DNA of 49,648 nucleotides from Myxococcota bacterium (GTDB lineage: Bacteria > Myxococcota_A > UBA9160 > SMWR01). Positions 1 through 10,098 of the stretch are shown piece by piece. Below the pieces are notes generated by a model, which was not told the DNA's origin, did no database searches, and saw only the letters and a list, made by a program, of their open reading frames with translations. The position numbers and the translations under genes are program-made. Positions within the stretch are counted from its first letter, which is position 1. Each line of letters begins with the position of its first letter. The stretch is taken from the NCBI GenBank assembly GCA_039030075.1, contig JBCCEW010000035.1:1-49648 (forward strand), in the 5' to 3' direction.

Positions 1-100
1 GCTCGGGTTCAGCGGGCTGGGCTCGGGTTCAGCGGGCTGGGCTCGGGTTCAGCGGGCTGGGCTCGGGCTCAGCGGGCTGGGCTCGGGCTCAGCCCGCCGC
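1..100. repeat. 20-bp tandem repeat at left edge
   Basis: The unit GCTCGGGTTCAGCGGGCTGG occurs three times exactly (1-20, 21-40, 41-60), once with a T-to-C change (61-80), and once as a half-diverged copy (81-100). Each unit carries TCA, which is a stop codon on the minus strand, and the last copy supplies the stop codon of the GST-like gene. The array runs off the left edge, so its true copy number is unknown. Such an array is a common place for an assembly to break. Confidence 0.9.
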
Positions 101-3286: not shown

Positions 3287-4483
3287 TCAGCGCGCCGAGA
3301 AGCGGCGCATCACCAGGCTCATCGCCGGACGCAGCGCGCGCCCGAGCCAGCGCTGCCAGCCCGCCAGTGCCGGCGTGTTCCCGGCGGACCCGAACGCGTC
3401 GATGCCGAGTTCTTCGCGCACGTCCGCGCTGAGCATCGCAACCGGCGTGTCGAGGGGAATGCCCGTGCCGTCGGCGATCCGCACCATCCGCGAGAAGTTG
3501 CCGATCACGGCCGCGGCGTCGACGACCGCTGCGTCACCGAGTTCGGTCGCCACCGCTTCGCGCGCGCGTTTCGCGTCGCCCGCGTCTCCGCGCACCGCCG
3601 CTTCGACGAACCCGATCAGCGCCTCTCCGCCCGGAACTCCCGACCCGGCCGCACGCGCGCCGTCGGTCACGGCGAGCAGATCCGGGCTCTCTCCCTGCAG
3701 CGCGCTGCTCTCACGGAGCAGCATGGTGTGTGCCGACGTTCAGTAGAAGCACTCATTGAGCGCCGAGACGCGGCCCGCGACCAGTTCGATCTGCGAGCGT
3801 GAGAGTGCGCGCCCGGTATTCGCACCGAGATTGCCGAGACGTTCGTGGGGCAGATACTGGGCCGAGCTCAGGGTGCTGAGCATCCGCACGTTGCTGGGCA
3901 CCTGGCTCAGCGCACGCAGCACGTTCGGAATCTGGGGCAGCGGCGGGAAGAGATCCTCGTAGGGCCCGACCGCGGCCGCCTTGTCGAGGGTGGCGACGTA
4001 CCCCGGCCCCGGCACCAGGCCGGCGGGAACTTCCCCGGTGGGCTCGCCGGCCACGGGCGCGGGCAGCGGCTCGGGTGCCAGGCCGAGCGCGCGGTGGAAC
4101 GCATCGATCGAGATCGACATGACGACCACGCCGAGCAGCTCGACGTAGGCGCCCTCGGACAAACCAGCCGCCAGCGTGCGGTCGAGCCACCCCTTCGAAA
4201 TCCTCGACGCGTCCGTCACGATCCGGTGGATCGCCTCGCTCGCCGCCTCGGGAAGCTCCCCCGACACGTCGTAGTCGCGCTCGACGGCGCTCGGCGAGAG
4301 CGGGAGGACGCCGCCGCGACGGAGGAAGTCTTCCTTGGCCAGTCGGGCCTCGGCCACGATCGCGACGCGCTGGGCGCCGGTCCAGAACGAGCCCGGCGCA
4401 GCAATCCAGTCCCACGCCTTGCGGAACGCGTCGGCCAGATCGGACCGGATCGGGTAGGGAGCGTCGGAGTAGTCGAAGGCCAT
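3287..4483 (-). CDS. AhpD-like selenoprotein read through in-frame TGA
   Basis: Two open stretches in the same frame (4483 to 3743 and 3739 to 3287) are separated only by the TGA at 3740-3742. Read through as selenocysteine, they give one 398-residue alkylhydroperoxidase/carboxymuconolactone-decarboxylase-like protein. The motif is LNECFY-U-TSAHTML, that is Cys245-x-x-Sec248-x3-His252, matching the CxxC-x3-His active site of AhpD with the second Cys replaced. The region before (SRSQIELVAGRVSALNECFY) and after (continuing to DAAAVIGNFSRMVRIADGTG) is family-like on both sides of the TGA. A hairpin at 3703-3723 fits a bacterial SECIS. A GTG at 4522 overlapping the cupin stop is an alternative start. 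Likely role: thiol/selenol peroxide reduction or redox relay. A standard gene caller would split this gene in two. Confidence 0.82.
3703..3723 (-). promoter_or_regulatory. Candidate bacterial SECIS hairpin
   Basis: In the mRNA (minus strand) GCUGCUC pairs perfectly with GAGCAGC around the 5-nt loop CGUGA, with one further U-G pair at the base. The stem begins 17 nt, and the loop 24 nt, after the UGA at 3740-3742. This fits the general bacterial SECIS rules: it lies within the coding region just after UGA, with a small apical loop and a G in the first two loop positions. It is the main structural evidence for selenocysteine insertion. Confidence 0.72.
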
Positions 4484-4514: not shown

Positions 4515-4880
4515 TCAAGCACGGGAGCCGGAGGCTCCTCCGCCAGACGCGGCGGGGGGATCCTTCAGTTCGATCAGCAGCTCGTAGTACGGCTCTTCGC
4601 CCACGTTGCGTGCCCGCTCGACGCCGCCCCGAGGGATGTAGAAGTGCTGACCGGGCACGACGTCGGCTTCGAGGTATTCGGCGTAGGGAGACTGGGTGCG
4701 CGGATCCGGGACGACGGCCATCCGGTCGCCGGTGATCTGGACCAGGATGTGGTCGAGGTGGTGCTGGTGCAGCGGGCCCTCTTCGCCCGGTGCGAGGCGC
4801 ATCTCCCAGATCTTCACGCGCTCGTTCTCGAACAAGAGCCGCGACGCAACATCGGCCGTGGGTTCGGATGCTTCGGACAT
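4515..4880 (-). CDS. Cupin-domain protein
   Basis: This small protein of 121 residues forms a single cupin barrel. The first cupin motif is visible as LHQHHLDHILVQITGD and the second as GQHFYIPRGGVERARNVG. The histidines in the first motif are likely metal ligands. The second ATG (4880) is preferred over 4886 because it leaves a 6-nt spacing to GGAGG. It lies 15 nt after the hydroxyacid dehydrogenase and just before the AhpD-like selenoprotein on the same strand, suggesting one transcript. Substrate unknown. Confidence 0.8.
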   Translation of the reverse strand: MSEASEPTADVASRLLFENERVKIWEMRLAPGEEGPLHQHHLDHILVQITGDRMAVVPDPRTQSPYAEYLEADVVPGQHFYIPRGGVERARNVGEEPYYELLIELKDPPAASGGGASGSRA

Positions 4881-4895
4881 GGCCATCCTCCGGTG

Positions 4896-5834
4896 TCAGT
4901 AGCCCTGCTCGACGTCCACCCGGTATGCGAGCGGTTCGTCGTTCAGGAAGTGAGTGAGATTCTCGAGGAACGGATCGAGCAATCGGTCGAGTGCGCCCGG
5001 TCCGTTCCAGGAACAGTGCGGGGACAACCGCACGCGCGGGTGGGTGTAGAGCCAATGGCCGGCGGGGAGCGGCTCGGGCGTCACCGTGTCGAGGGAAGCG
5101 AGCGCGACCCGACCGGAGTCGAGGGCCGCACGCAGTGCGTCCTGATCGACGAGGCCGCCGCGCGCGACGTTGATGAGATGCACGCCTTCCTTGATGCGCG
5201 CGAAGGTGTCCTGGCCCAGGAGCCCCCGCGTCGCCGGCGTGTACGGTGCCGCGACCACCAGGTGGTCGGCTTCGGCCAGGAGCGCGTCGAACGACACGAT
5301 CTCGACCCCGTCGAGGTCCGACGGCTGGGTAGAGCGGCGGTGCGCCAACACCCGCATGCCGAAGGGCAGTGCGCGCTCGGCCGTCGCCCGCGCGATGCCC
5401 CCGAAGCCGAGCAAGCCGAGGGTCCGTCCGTCGAGCCCCCCGAGATCGAAGCGGTTCCAGCGCTCGGGAGCCTCTTCGATCCACACATCGGGCAGACGCT
5501 TCTCGGCGGCCAACAGCATCGCCATCACCCACTCGGAGATCGGGGTCGCGCTGGCGCCGCGGGAACAGGTGAGCGGCACGTCGCCGAGTTCCGCGAACGG
5601 AAACGCGTTGACCCCGGTGCCGTAGGCGTGCACCCAGCGCACGCCGCAGCGCAGCAGCGCTCCGAGGTTCGGGCTGCCCCACGCCTGCGTGAGCAGTACG
5701 TCGCCGACGAGCCCCGGTTCGAGCGCGCCTTCTTCCGGCACGACTTCGACGGCGATGTCGGGGAAGCGCTCTCGCAATGGCGCGAGCAATCCGAGCGGGA
5801 AGTGACTGAGGATGCGAAGGGGATGCGAACTCAC
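4896..5834 (-). CDS. NAD-dependent D-2-hydroxyacid dehydrogenase
   Basis: This 312-residue protein belongs to the D-isomer 2-hydroxyacid dehydrogenase family. The Rossmann motif LGLLGFGGIARA is near the middle, followed by INVARGGLVDQDAL (catalytic Arg region), a Glu in TVTPEPLPAGHWLY, and the catalytic His in LSPHCSWNGPG. The start is the GTG at 5834; the stretch upstream is low-complexity and not family-like. The family reduces 2-keto acids to D-2-hydroxy acids or oxidises them, with NAD(P). The gene leads a minus-strand group with the cupin and the selenoprotein, and is divergent from the acyl-CoA synthetase gene with 53 bp between. Confidence 0.88.
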   Translation of the reverse strand: MSSHPLRILSHFPLGLLAPLRERFPDIAVEVVPEEGALEPGLVGDVLLTQAWGSPNLGALLRCGVRWVHAYGTGVNAFPFAELGDVPLTCSRGASATPISEWVMAMLLAAEKRLPDVWIEEAPERWNRFDLGGLDGRTLGLLGFGGIARATAERALPFGMRVLAHRRSTQPSDLDGVEIVSFDALLAEADHLVVAAPYTPATRGLLGQDTFARIKEGVHLINVARGGLVDQDALRAALDSGRVALASLDTVTPEPLPAGHWLYTHPRVRLSPHCSWNGPGALDRLLDPFLENLTHFLNDEPLAYRVDVEQGY

Positions 5835-5887
5835 GCGGTGCTCTCTGGCTTCTTGCTGGCCTCGCACGCACGGGTCATGCTGCGCGC

Positions 5888-7369
5888 ATGGAAATGTTGG
5901 TCGGGGACATCGTGCGTCGCAACGCGGCAGTGGTTCCCGACGACATCGCGGCCTCGCTGGGGGAGCGCACACTCTCGCACCGCGCCCTCGACGCCATGGC
6001 GAACCGGCTCGTTCACGGGTTGCGCGCGCAGGGCATCGGGCACGGCGATCGCGTGGTCACCTGGTCGGACACCTGCCTGGAAGTGCTGCCCCTGTTCGTC
6101 GCGTGCGCGAAGCTCGGCGCCGTCTTTGCGCCACTGAACGCCCGCTACAGCGCCGACGAAGCGGCGCCCGTGGCCGCCCTGGCGCGACCGGCCCTGCTGG
6201 TGAGCGACGCCCAGCGCGCGGCGGCGTCCGAGAGCGTGGCGAAGGCCGCCGACGTTCCGCGCCTCGCCCACCTGGGCGAGTGCGACGGCCCCGGACTCGA
6301 CCTGACCGCCCTGGCCAGCCAGGCCGACGACAGCGGCTGGGTCGAGCCGGCGCTGCGCGAGGAAGATCCCCAGGTCCTCTTCTTCACGAGCGGCAGCACC
6401 GGCCGCCCGAAGGGGGTGGTGCTCTCGCATCGCGCCAACTACCTGCGCGGCTTCCAGGGTGTCTTCCGCGACGTTCCGGAACGCTCGGTCTGCATGTTTC
6501 CGCTCTTCCACATGGCCGGCTTCACGCTGTCGATCGCCGCGTGGCAGACGCGGGGCGAGATCGCCCTGGTCGAGTCCGCAGATGCCGACACCTTGCTGGC
6601 GACCGTCGAGCGCCGACGCGCGAACCGGCTCTACGCGATCCCAGCGGTGTGGGCGCGCATCCTCGACCACGACCCGAGCCGCTACGACACCTCGAGCCTG
6701 CGCGAGGCCGACACGGGCACCTCCGCCGTCCCCATCGAGCTGGTCCGCGCCCTCAAGGAACGCTTTCCCGACAGCGCGACCCGCATCTACTACGGGTCGA
6801 CCGAAGCCGGCTCGGGAACCACGCTTCCCGACGCCGACGTCTTGCGAAAGCCGGGCAGCGTCGGGCCGGCGTCGCCGGGCGTCGACCTGCGCGTCGCCGA
6901 CGACGGCGAGATCGTCCTGCGCAGCAAGTATCTCTTCGACGGTTACTTCGACGACCCGGCCACCACCGCCGAAGCGCTGCGCGACGGCTGGTTCCACACC
7001 GGCGACCTCGGCGAGCTCGACGACGAGGGCTACCTGCAGGTCGTCGGTCGCAAGAAGGAACTGATCCGCACCGGCGGCGAGAGCGTCGCGCCCTCCGAAG
7101 TCGAAGCGGTGGTGCGCGAACACCCGGGCATCGCCGAGGTCGCGATCGTGGGCGTGCCCGATCCGCAGTGGGGCGAGGTGGTGTGCGCCGTGGTCGTGCG
7201 CGGGTCGGGACCCCCGCCCGACCTCGACGCGCTGCAGGCGCTCTGCCGCGATCGACTCGCGTCCTTCAAGAAGCCGCGCCGGCTCGTCTTCGTCGACGCC
7301 CTGCCCCGGACCGCCGCCACCGGCCAGGTCCAGCGCGCCCTGCTGGTCGAGCAGATCGTCAGCGGCTGA
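5888..7369 (+). CDS. AMP-binding acyl-CoA synthetase, catalytic Lys replaced
   Basis: This 493-residue class I adenylate-forming enzyme resembles acyl- or aryl-CoA synthetases. The AMP-binding P-loop TSGSTGRPKG is at about 167-176, the YYGSTEAG motif, the TGDLGELDDEGYLQVVGRKKE hinge region and the C-terminal domain are all present. The conserved C-terminal lysine motif (usually TGKxxR) reads TGQVQR here, with Gln480 in place of the Lys that contacts the carboxylate and AMP. If real, this should weaken the adenylation half-reaction. It precedes the TetR and 2-oxoacid:ferredoxin oxidoreductase genes, so it probably supplies or removes the corresponding CoA thioester. Confidence 0.9.
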   Translation: MEMLVGDIVRRNAAVVPDDIAASLGERTLSHRALDAMANRLVHGLRAQGIGHGDRVVTWSDTCLEVLPLFVACAKLGAVFAPLNARYSADEAAPVAALARPALLVSDAQRAAASESVAKAADVPRLAHLGECDGPGLDLTALASQADDSGWVEPALREEDPQVLFFTSGSTGRPKGVVLSHRANYLRGFQGVFRDVPERSVCMFPLFHMAGFTLSIAAWQTRGEIALVESADADTLLATVERRRANRLYAIPAVWARILDHDPSRYDTSSLREADTGTSAVPIELVRALKERFPDSATRIYYGSTEAGSGTTLPDADVLRKPGSVGPASPGVDLRVADDGEIVLRSKYLFDGYFDDPATTAEALRDGWFHTGDLGELDDEGYLQVVGRKKELIRTGGESVAPSEVEAVVREHPGIAEVAIVGVPDPQWGEVVCAVVVRGSGPPPDLDALQALCRDRLASFKKPRRLVFVDALPRTAATGQVQRALLVEQIVSG

Positions 7370-7452
7370 TCCCACGCGTCCGCCCCCTCCCGGGACCCCG
7401 CCCCGGTCCCGCGAGCGCCGGCGAGACCGGGGGGTTGCTTCGTGTCGCCGGT

Positions 7453-7489
7453 GAGAATACCATTCTCGCGAATCGAGAACGAGGTTCTC
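7453..7489. promoter_or_regulatory. Tandem palindromic operators before TetR gene
   Basis: Two perfect 6-3-6 palindromes lie side by side: GAGAATACCATTCTC (7453-7467) and GAGAACGAGGTTCTC (7475-7489). Both fit GAGAAY-N3-RTTCTC, and their centres are 22 bp apart, about two helical turns. The second overlaps the GAGG ribosome site of the TetR gene that starts at 7493. The arrangement is what one expects of an autorepressor binding as two dimers on one DNA face, and would control the whole downstream oxidoreductase operon. Confidence 0.72.
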
Positions 7490-7492
7490 TTC

Positions 7493-8182
7493 GTGAAATC
7501 GAACACTTCGGACGCTCCCGAGGCAGCTCCCGCGGCGCTGGGGCGCTGGGCGCGCCGATCGGCGCGGAGGGCGGGGGCGTCCCGCGCGGCCCGGCACGAC
7601 GACACCGTGCGCCGCCTGGTCGAGGCGAGCCTCGAACTGATTCGCGAAACGGGCGCGCTCGAGCCCCGCGTCTCCGAGATCCTGCGGCGCGCGGGCCTTT
7701 CGAATCAGGCCTTCTACCGCCACTTCGAATCGAAGGACGAGCTGCTCCTGTGTGTGCTCGACGAGGGCGTGCGGATGCTGGGCAGCTATCTCGACCATCG
7801 CCTGGACCGTGCGGAGGATCCGGCCGAGCAGGTGCGCCACTGGCTGGAGGGCATCCTCGAGCAGGGCTTGCAAGCCGAAGCAGCCGCGGCGACCCGACCC
7901 TTCGCGTGTTCCCGCGCGCGACTCTCGGAACTCTTCCCCGACGAGGTCGCCGCCTCGGAAGCGCGCCTGATCGGGCCGCTGCGGGAACGTCTGGAAAAGG
8001 CCGCGCGCGCCGGTTGGCCCGGACACCCCCAGCGAGACGCCGACACGCTCTACACCCTCGCGATGGGCTGGCTGCAGCGCAGCCTCACCCAGCCCGAGCC
8101 GCCGACGCGCGACGACGCGACACACCTCGTGCGTTTTGCGCTCGCGGGCCTGGCCCTGGCCACCGACGGAGGCAGCGACTGA
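7493..8182 (+). CDS. TetR-family transcriptional regulator
   Basis: This TetR-family repressor has 229 residues. The helix-turn-helix is ASLELIRETGALEPRVSEIL then AGLSNQAFYRHFESKDELLL, followed by a helical regulatory domain. I choose the GTG at 7493: it has GAGG 8 nt upstream and leaves the two operator palindromes outside the coding region. The next gene starts 1 nt after its stop, so regulator and oxidoreductase are almost certainly co-transcribed. The ligand is probably a CoA ester or related acid of the pathway, by inference from neighbours. Confidence 0.9.
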   Translation: MKSNTSDAPEAAPAALGRWARRSARRAGASRAARHDDTVRRLVEASLELIRETGALEPRVSEILRRAGLSNQAFYRHFESKDELLLCVLDEGVRMLGSYLDHRLDRAEDPAEQVRHWLEGILEQGLQAEAAAATRPFACSRARLSELFPDEVAASEARLIGPLRERLEKAARAGWPGHPQRDADTLYTLAMGWLQRSLTQPEPPTRDDATHLVRFALAGLALATDGGSD

Positions 8183-8183
8183 G

Positions 8184-8777
8184 ATGGAACGCGCGATCCT
8201 CTTCACCGGCATCGGCGGCCAGGGCATCCAGCTCGCCGCACAGATCCTCGCGCGGGCCGCGGTGGCCGAAGGACGGCATGCGCTGCTCTTCGGTTCCTAC
8301 GGTGGCACGATGCGCGGTGGCCCCACCGACTCGACGCTGCTCGTCGCGGATGCGCCGGTGACGGGGACACCGATCGTGTCCCGCGCCTGGGCCGGCCTGG
8401 GCATGCACCCGAGCTTCTTCCCCGCCGTCGCCGCGAAGCTCGAACCGGGCGCTGTGGTGTGCGTGAACGCGTCGCTCTTCGAAGACGGCCTGGCAGAACC
8501 CCAGATCGAGCCGCCCTGGCGGGTGTTCTCGGTCGAGGCCACGCGTCTCGCCTCGGAGCTGGGCGCCGGACGCGCGGGGAGCCTGCTCTTGCTCGGCGCC
8601 TTCGCCAACGCGACGGCGCTCGTCTCCCTCGACGCGCTGGTCGCCGCCATGGACGCCACGCTGCCCGCCCGACGTCGCGAACACCGCGAGCTCAACGAAG
8701 CCGCGCTGCGTCGCGGGTTCGAGGTCACGCCTCACGCGGTGGCTCCCGCCTGGACTTCCTCGGAGCGCGCAGCATGA
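8184..8777 (+). CDS. 2-oxoacid:ferredoxin oxidoreductase, gamma subunit
   Basis: This 197-residue protein starts ERAILFTGIGGQGIQLAAQILARAA, the signature of the gamma (CoA-contact) domain of pyruvate/ketoisovalerate ferredoxin oxidoreductases, with SYGGTMRGGPTDSTLLVAD further on. In the family this subunit joins the alpha-beta core and helps bind CoA. It begins 1 nt after the TetR stop and overlaps the ferredoxin subunit gene by 4 nt (ATGA). Together with the next three genes it makes a full four-subunit enzyme. Confidence 0.92.
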   Translation: MERAILFTGIGGQGIQLAAQILARAAVAEGRHALLFGSYGGTMRGGPTDSTLLVADAPVTGTPIVSRAWAGLGMHPSFFPAVAAKLEPGAVVCVNASLFEDGLAEPQIEPPWRVFSVEATRLASELGAGRAGSLLLLGAFANATALVSLDALVAAMDATLPARRREHRELNEAALRRGFEVTPHAVAPAWTSSERAA

Positions 8778-9022
8778 GCGCCGTGGTGTCCCGCGGAACC
8801 GTCACGCTCGCCGCCGACCGCTGCAAGGGTTGCGCCCTGTGCGTCCCCGCCTGCCCGCCGGGCGTGCTGCGCATGTCGGAAACCCACAACGCCCAGGGCT
8901 ATCCGATTCCCGAGCTGGTGCCGGGCTGTACGGGCTGCGGCGCCTGCCTGCTCGTCTGCCCCGATTTCTGCTTCGAGATCTACCGCTACGAGACGCCCCA
9001 GGAACACGAGGTTTCCCCGTGA
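8774..9022 (+). CDS. 2-oxoacid:ferredoxin oxidoreductase, delta subunit
   Basis: This 82-residue ferredoxin has two 4Fe-4S clusters. The two binding motifs are CKGCALCVPACPPG near residue 17 and CTGCGACLLVCPDF near residue 55. It is the delta, electron-transfer subunit of the four-subunit oxidoreductase and carries electrons from the thiamine centre to external ferredoxin. It starts inside the gamma gene stop (ATGA) and ends inside the alpha gene start (GTGA), so translation of the set is coupled. Confidence 0.92.
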   Translation: MSAVVSRGTVTLAADRCKGCALCVPACPPGVLRMSETHNAQGYPIPELVPGCTGCGACLLVCPDFCFEIYRYETPQEHEVSP

Positions 9023-10098
9023 CCGCCGAACTCCTCGAAGGCTCGCTCGCGATCGCCCGCGCAGCGCTGCTCGCGGACTGCCGTTTCTTCGCGGGCTACC
9101 CGATGACCCCCTTCACCGAGCTCCTCGAACACATGGCGGAGGCGCTGCCGACGGAAGGCGGCGTGTGCATCAACGCCGAGAGCGAGCTCGAAGCCGTCGG
9201 GATGGCCTGGGGCGCGCTGGCCACCGGGGCCCGAGCGGCCACTGGATCGACGGGGCAAGGGCTCGCCCTGATGCAGGAGTCGCTCTCGGAGATCACCCGC
9301 GCCGAGCTCCCCCTGGTCGTCTTTCACATGGCGCGCGGCCAGTTCGACTACACCCAGGCGACGCGCGGCGGGGGCCACGGCGACTATCGCCACCTCGTGC
9401 TCGCGCCGAGCGACGTGCAGGAAGCCGTCGAGCTCACCCAGCTCGCCTTCCACCTCGCCGATCACTGGCGCAACCCGGTTCAGATCTACGGCGATTTCTT
9501 TCTCGCCCACACCTACGAGTCGGTGGAACTCGCCCCCCTCGACCTCCCCGCCCTTCCGGAAAAGGAATGGGCCGTCGACGGACGACTCGGGGGCAGCGGG
9601 CGATCGCGAAACCTGAACCCGCTCGGGATGGAGAAGGGTGCGAAGGGCATCGAACCCGAACGCTTCTGGGTGCGCCTCCAGGAAAAGCACGATCGGATGG
9701 CCGAGACCGAGATGCGCCACGAGGCGTTCGCCTGCGAGGACGCCGAGCTGGTGATCGTCGCGTTCGGCTCCCTGGCGCGCTTTGCGCGCTCGGTCGTGCA
9801 GGAGCTGCGCGCCGAAGGCGTCCGCGTCGGCCTGTTCCGCCCGATCTCGCTCTGGCCCTTCCCGGCGCCGGCCCTGTCCGAAGCCGCCAGCGGGGCACGG
9901 CGCGTCGCCGTCCTCGAACAGAACGGGGGCCAGATGATCGACGACGTGCGACTCGCGGTACTCGGACGCGCGCCGGTCGAGGCGATCGGCGGCATCTCGA
10001 GCGACGACGCCGGCTTCGGGGTCGGCGATCTCTATGCGCCGGCCGAGATCCGCCGCCGCGTCGAAGCAGCCCTCGCCGCACGAGGAGGCGTGCAGTGA
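9019..10098 (+). CDS. 2-oxoacid:ferredoxin oxidoreductase, alpha subunit
   Basis: This 359-residue pyrimidine-binding subunit has the N-terminal domain signature CRFFAGYPMTPFTELLEHMA, then ESELEAVGMAWGALATGARAATGSTGQGL, and a C-terminal transketolase-like domain (LVIVAFGSLARFARSVVQEL and LFRPISLWPFP). It starts at GTG 9019, overlapping the delta stop, and ends overlapping the beta start. The set resembles VorABCD/KorABCD. Which 2-oxo acid (branched-chain, 2-oxoglutarate, aryl-pyruvate) is used cannot be read from sequence alone. Confidence 0.92.
   Translation: MTAELLEGSLAIARAALLADCRFFAGYPMTPFTELLEHMAEALPTEGGVCINAESELEAVGMAWGALATGARAATGSTGQGLALMQESLSEITRAELPLVVFHMARGQFDYTQATRGGGHGDYRHLVLAPSDVQEAVELTQLAFHLADHWRNPVQIYGDFFLAHTYESVELAPLDLPALPEKEWAVDGRLGGSGRSRNLNPLGMEKGAKGIEPERFWVRLQEKHDRMAETEMRHEAFACEDAELVIVAFGSLARFARSVVQELRAEGVRVGLFRPISLWPFPAPALSEAASGARRVAVLEQNGGQMIDDVRLAVLGRAPVEAIGGISSDDAGFGVGDLYAPAEIRRRVEAALAARGGVQ

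Follow-up and report, generated by a model that had tools for sequence, protein, structure and literature searches.

The minus-strand gene at positions 3287-4483 of the window, i.e. of the whole stretch of 49,648 nucleotides that was analysed, very likely encodes a single selenoprotein of 398 residues that belongs to the NF041238 family, receives selenocysteine (Sec) at residue 248 by means of SelB and an RNA hairpin, adopts a tandem AhpD fold and acts most probably as an organic-hydroperoxide reductase. Its features are:

3287-4483, minus strand: NF041238 selenoprotein gene (AhpD-related), 398 residues, ATG at 4483-4481, terminal TGA at 3289-3287
3740-3742, minus strand: in-frame TGA, candidate selenocysteine codon (codon 248), in the same alignment column in relatives
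3728-3751, minus strand: predicted active-site motif C245-F-Y-U248-T-S-A-H252, with invariant residues and the spacing of 2prr
3704-3722, minus strand: SECIS-like hairpin, 7 bp, loop CGUGA, pairing kept in 50 sequences
3944-4483, minus strand: predicted N-terminal AhpD-fold half, lacking the active-site residues in this copy
3404-3943, minus strand: predicted C-terminal AhpD-fold half, which carries the CxxU...H site

The ORF list splits the gene into two frames, 4522-3740 (260 aa) and 3724-3287 (145 aa), which is the pair of broken genes that the earlier note had expected from conventional annotation. As that note had also claimed, the two join in frame across a single TGA, and the joined frame runs from an ATG over all 398 residues on the minus strand, a strand assignment that the note had not given. 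On the plus strand no comparable selenoprotein frame was found within 3287-4483. The residues around the internal TGA read N-E-C-F-Y-U-T-S-A-H, which corresponds to C-x-x-U-x3-H. The proposed location of selenocysteine at the second active-site cysteine of AhpD is borne out by the motif ECFYUTSAH, and in 6k40 and 2oyo a cysteine is aligned at this position.

The NCBIfam model NF041238 (AhpD_rel_CFYUT, “alkylhydroperoxidase-related (seleno)protein”) matches the protein with 422.7 bits (cut-off 175, E 1e-126), unbroken across the TGA and over model positions 1-356 of 357. The CFY[U/C]T motif of this family is present with its Sec position encoded by TGA, and homologues carry the same motif. Two more general models also match: the Pfam family CMD (PF02627) with 26.4 bits, just above its cut-off of 23, and the AhpD core model TIGR00778 with 32.2 bits (cut-off 27.8). 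In a review of 2026 the entry for NF041238 reads “AhpD-related protein (hypothetical protein 1, Sargasso Sea metagenome)”, with a CxxU motif (PMC13188914). Four Sec-containing sequences of hypothetical protein 1, together with Cys homologues, had been described in 2005 in the Sargasso Sea selenoproteome, where a possible redox function was proposed (PMC1088965). The full-length match and these descriptions mean that the family is already known; the gene at 4483-3287 is therefore a further member of NF041238 and not a new kind of selenoprotein. This is in agreement with the earlier note, which had regarded AhpD-like selenoproteins as a known class. The present copy shares with the family the CFYUT motif, Sec at CxxU, the length and the domain layout.

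To a reader of the contig the TGA could appear to be an error of sequencing or assembly, or the gene to be a pseudogene in decay: the assembly is a draft of 55 contigs, and ordinary ORF finding shows the gene in two pieces. The probability of this explanation is negligible. NF041238 was found above its cut-off in 57 of 192 related genomes, often with two or three copies each, and in each of the 92 matches a single TGA is the only stop; 379 genomes drawn across the phylum gave the same result, one TGA per above-cut-off match. The TGA occupies the same codon in all 58 NF041238 genes that were collected. Two paralogues in the same genome (L053, G000:C5:166159-167214, and L054, G000:C9:184356-185339) each contain one TGA as well, followed by the same hairpin as in the gene studied here, and the protein is conserved on both sides of the TGA. 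As the same TGA recurs in paralogues and in independent genomes, the reading as an error or pseudogene is refuted. With NF041238 continuous across the TGA and the TGA shared by homologues, an internal TGA within a conserved frame is far beyond chance. A single scan of the genome contigs returned one locus, and the region around its TGA does not differ from that of L025, a genome already among the relatives; the plasmid and viral collections yielded no relatives.

It could further be argued that the TGA is a true stop, either separating two proteins or terminating translation so that the second half is removed. TGA does work as a stop in this genome, both at the end of the selenoprotein gene itself and at the end (3284) of the adjoining GST gene. 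None of the above-cut-off NF041238 homologues ends at the internal TGA, however, be it among the 192 related genomes or the 379 across the phylum, and the check suggested earlier for homologues stopping at this place thus favours readthrough. Moreover, the invariant residues F330, R335, A337, G341 and I342 lie after the TGA, an independent downstream ORF would begin inside the active-site helix and without the cysteine, and both a hairpin and the Sec machinery are present. We consider a true stop very improbable. General reassignment of TGA was rejected, because the selenoprotein gene and neighbouring genes terminate at TGA.

The source genome contains selA (517.2 bits), selB (322.6) and selD (271.2), all above cut-off, and a tRNA-Sec with 69.7 bits, which ARAGORN also reports as tRNA-SeC with anticodon tca; the set of sel genes that the earlier note had asked for is therefore at hand. 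A second tRNA-Sec candidate, at C3, turned out to be a tRNA-Ser. Among the related genomes selB was detected at E<=1e-60 in 48 of the 57 with NF041238 compared to 72 of the 135 without it (Fisher p 4e-5). Each of the nine genomes with NF041238 but without selB at this threshold has selA or tRNA-Sec above cut-off, so that no genome with NF041238 lacks all Sec machinery. The search for Cys homologues gave a divided answer: Cys replaces Sec in the single-domain solved relatives 6k40, 2oyo, 3c1l and 2pfx, and a full-length Cys version of NF041238 was absent from the 192 related genomes, the 379 phylum genomes and the plasmid and viral collections, a point against the selenoprotein reading, although the 2005 study does report Cys homologues. 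The reading of the TGA as selenocysteine is supported by the sel genes, the shared TGA and the solved Cys relatives, from which we infer Sec insertion.

Further genes came to light among the relatives. A shorter AhpD-like gene of 256 aa (L090, G084:C42, around 2704) carries an in-frame TGA within DCFYUTQSH and is, judged by its sequence, a separate, single-domain type of AhpD-like selenoprotein. Two other relatives (L064, G046:C80, and L065, G056:C12) have a pair of NF041238 genes a short distance apart and on opposite strands, which suggests local duplication.

The hairpin GCTGCTC-CGTGA-GAGCAGC was found as described beforehand, at 3722-3704 of the minus strand: a perfect 7-bp stem with loop CGUGA that begins exactly 17 nt after the TGA and lies inside the coding region. 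The folding check proposed for it held for the isolated 24-mer (-12.3 kcal/mol; z -3.4, equalled by 1 of 200 shuffles) but failed for the 51-nt piece following the TGA, which folds no better than shuffles (z +0.78). Folding energy alone is thus weak evidence, and the case is carried by conservation. Across 50 distinct sequences 98.3% of the cells of the seven pairs are paired, compared to 28-59% in slid controls, and the pair 19-35, counted from the TGA, occurs as CG in 39, AU in 10 and UA in 1 sequence. Kinship of the sequences inflates both the covariation and the codon counts that follow: two-sided changes number 12 versus 2.3 in shuffles, with the score reached by 0 of 500 shuffles; in 59 genes (58 of NF041238 plus the shorter gene L090) the Arg codon in the loop is CGT in 35 and CGG in 24, while CGC does not occur there although it accounts for 54.6% of the Arg codons in the rest of these genes; and the preceding Leu codon is CTC in 58 of 59 (exception L090) versus 42.7% in the rest of these genes. 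Part of the covariation coincides with an amino-acid change (Leu/Gly versus Met/Ile) and is therefore not purely silent; the codon choice is silent and leads in the same direction. Taken together, covariation and codon choice in these sequences point to selection on the RNA.

The predicted full-length model is almost wholly helical, with a mean pLDDT of 93.9. Its C-terminal half matches solved AhpD-like chains with Z of about 13-14. The N-terminal half, modelled alone (pLDDT 89.5), matches only AhpD/CMD chains (Z 5.7-8.6), while unrelated chains reach at most 2.5. A profile comparison of the two halves was weak, with E 0.0037 and an hhalign probability of only 8.9%, but aligned the first-half CxLC of the homologues on the second-half CFYC; the profile of the N-terminal half gave no match with the single C-terminal sequence. 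Since both halves match AhpD/CMD folds, the extra length results, according to the model, from tandem duplication of the AhpD fold, and the active site belongs to the second half. The fusion-length protein of about 400 residues postulated earlier was therefore right in length (398), and its nature is corrected to a duplication of one fold.

The best full-length structural match is human Sestrin2 (5t0n/5dj4) with Z 17.3 over 242 residues at rmsd 3.5. Both proteins possess two AhpD-like halves per chain, which form a pseudo-dimer. In Sestrin the active Cys is located in the first half and the second Cys is lost, whereas the selenoprotein has no Cys at the site in its first half and keeps the helix-turn-helix with CxxU in its second. 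In the second half of Sestrin a helix is replaced by the DDYDY hinge (PMC11429811), and this half has leucine and GATOR2 functions; the selenoprotein has no DDYDY hinge. No Sestrin turned up when PDB sequences were searched by profile, and the selenoprotein matched none of the sestrin families in Pfam, so the likeness is one of fold only. With the active site in the other half, no hinge and no sequence match, identity with Sestrin is ruled out.

The active-site helix-turn-helix and all catalytic residues are shared with 6k40 (Deinococcus radiodurans), 2prr (Ralstonia), 2oyo, 3c1l and 2pfx. These solved single-domain AhpD-like proteins comprise about 190 residues and have Cys for Sec, whereas the selenoprotein contains the fold twice per chain. 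A tandem AhpD fold is also found in the bacterial fused AhpD dimers resembling Sestrin that were reported for Comamonas aquatica, Corynebacterium ureicelerivorans, a Ca. Rokubacteria CMD protein and E. coli YciW (PMC11429811). Compared by description, the dimers of Comamonas aquatica and Corynebacterium ureicelerivorans combine a first half devoid of Cys with a second half that is active, as the present copy does, and the fused dimers of that paper, again by description, use Cys where the selenoprotein has Sec. Selenocysteine is not mentioned in PMC11429811, and our literature search found no paper joining Sestrin with NF041238.

Residues E233, C245, Y247, U248 and H252 do not vary among 46 homologues and have the same spacing as Glu74, Cys86, Tyr88, Cys89 and His93 of 2prr (YP_296737.1; numbering from PMC4674687). 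In the mechanism we propose, SelB with Sec-tRNA(UCA) would recognise the hairpin just 3' of the UGA and selenocysteine would be inserted at residue 248. The two AhpD/carboxymuconolactone-decarboxylase-fold halves in tandem would form an internal pseudo-dimer, of which the second half would hold the C245-x-x-U248-x3-H252 site plus E233 and Y247. Sec248 would react with an organic hydroperoxide, Cys245 would resolve the selenenic acid by forming an Se-S bond, and this bond would be reduced by a thiol donor of the cell. We infer the reaction, its substrate and its reductant; by analogy with AhpD and Sestrin2, reduction of an organic hydroperoxide is the most likely reaction, at somewhat better than even odds.

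The AhpD fold by itself is no proof of peroxide reduction, as the debrominase Bmp8 shares it. The selenoprotein might instead be a CxxU thiol-disulfide oxidoreductase that reduces a protein partner, or else an enzyme of the AhpD fold acting on a specific carbon substrate of nearby catabolism genes. CxxU is a general redox motif, the neighbours, though they differ, frequently belong to catabolism (AMP-ligases, enoyl-CoA hydratase, short-chain dehydrogenase), Bmp8 exemplifies other chemistry on this fold, and the AhpD of M. tuberculosis serves as an adaptor reducing AhpC. We give such a non-peroxidase role a real though lesser chance: the proton-relay residues of 2prr and Sestrin2 are all kept as E233, Y247 and H252, and Sestrin2, to which the full-length model is structurally most similar, uses this site to reduce cumene hydroperoxide (PMC4674687).

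A more speculative aspect of the proposed peroxide reductase arises from the first half. A CxLC pair is present there in 31 of 45 readable homologues, for example in the same-genus gene of L032, and is intact in neither the present copy nor its paralogues L053 and L054. It is conceivable, if rather unlikely, that in most NF041238 members the first-half CxLC and the second-half CxxU cooperate, for instance with the first pair recharging the second, in a fused, Sestrin-like and Se-dependent dimer; the three copies of this genome, without the first pair, would then need an outside reductant.

Upstream of the selenoprotein gene lie two further minus-strand genes:

4515-4886, minus strand: cupin-like gene of 123 aa (Pfam Auxin_BP), separated from the selenoprotein gene by a 31-nt gap
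4896-5972 as listed, minus strand: D-2-hydroxyacid dehydrogenase (Pfam 2-Hacid_dh_C), separated from the cupin gene by a 9-nt gap

The true start of the dehydrogenase is probably further in than 5972, since the ORF overlaps a divergent acyl-CoA ligase at 5888. The earlier note had coupled the selenoprotein to these two genes, a coupling that did not recur: a search of about 70 relative loci found neither gene, and in a genome of the same genus (L060) the selenoprotein gene stands directly beside the divergent acyl-CoA ligase. The coupling is thus a local trait of this genome and of little use as a guide to function, and a common operon function with cupin and hydroxyacid dehydrogenase is not supported, both genes having been missed in every relative locus searched. 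The neighbours of the relatives vary (DNA ligase D/Ku, enoyl-CoA hydratase, phytanoyl-CoA dioxygenase, FAD-linked oxidase), and therefore no function was drawn from them; the relative loci contained no conserved neighbourhood that hints at a substrate. The region 5888-10098, with genes for the acyl-CoA ligase, a TetR regulator and 2-oxoacid:ferredoxin-oxidoreductase-like proteins, has the same order in L060, where cupin and dehydrogenase are missing. At the contig end (window positions 1-93) a 20-bp unit is repeated 4.7 times with 98% identity, which is probably where the assembly stopped.

The selenoprotein at 4483-3287 shows cleanly how ordinary annotation cuts such a gene in two. NF041238 is widely used in this bacterial lineage, occurring in 57 of the 192 relatives sampled, and there always with Sec. 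For the long-uncharacterised hypothetical protein 1, the link to a Sestrin-type tandem AhpD fold provides a testable hypothesis, namely that it may reduce bulky organic hydroperoxides.
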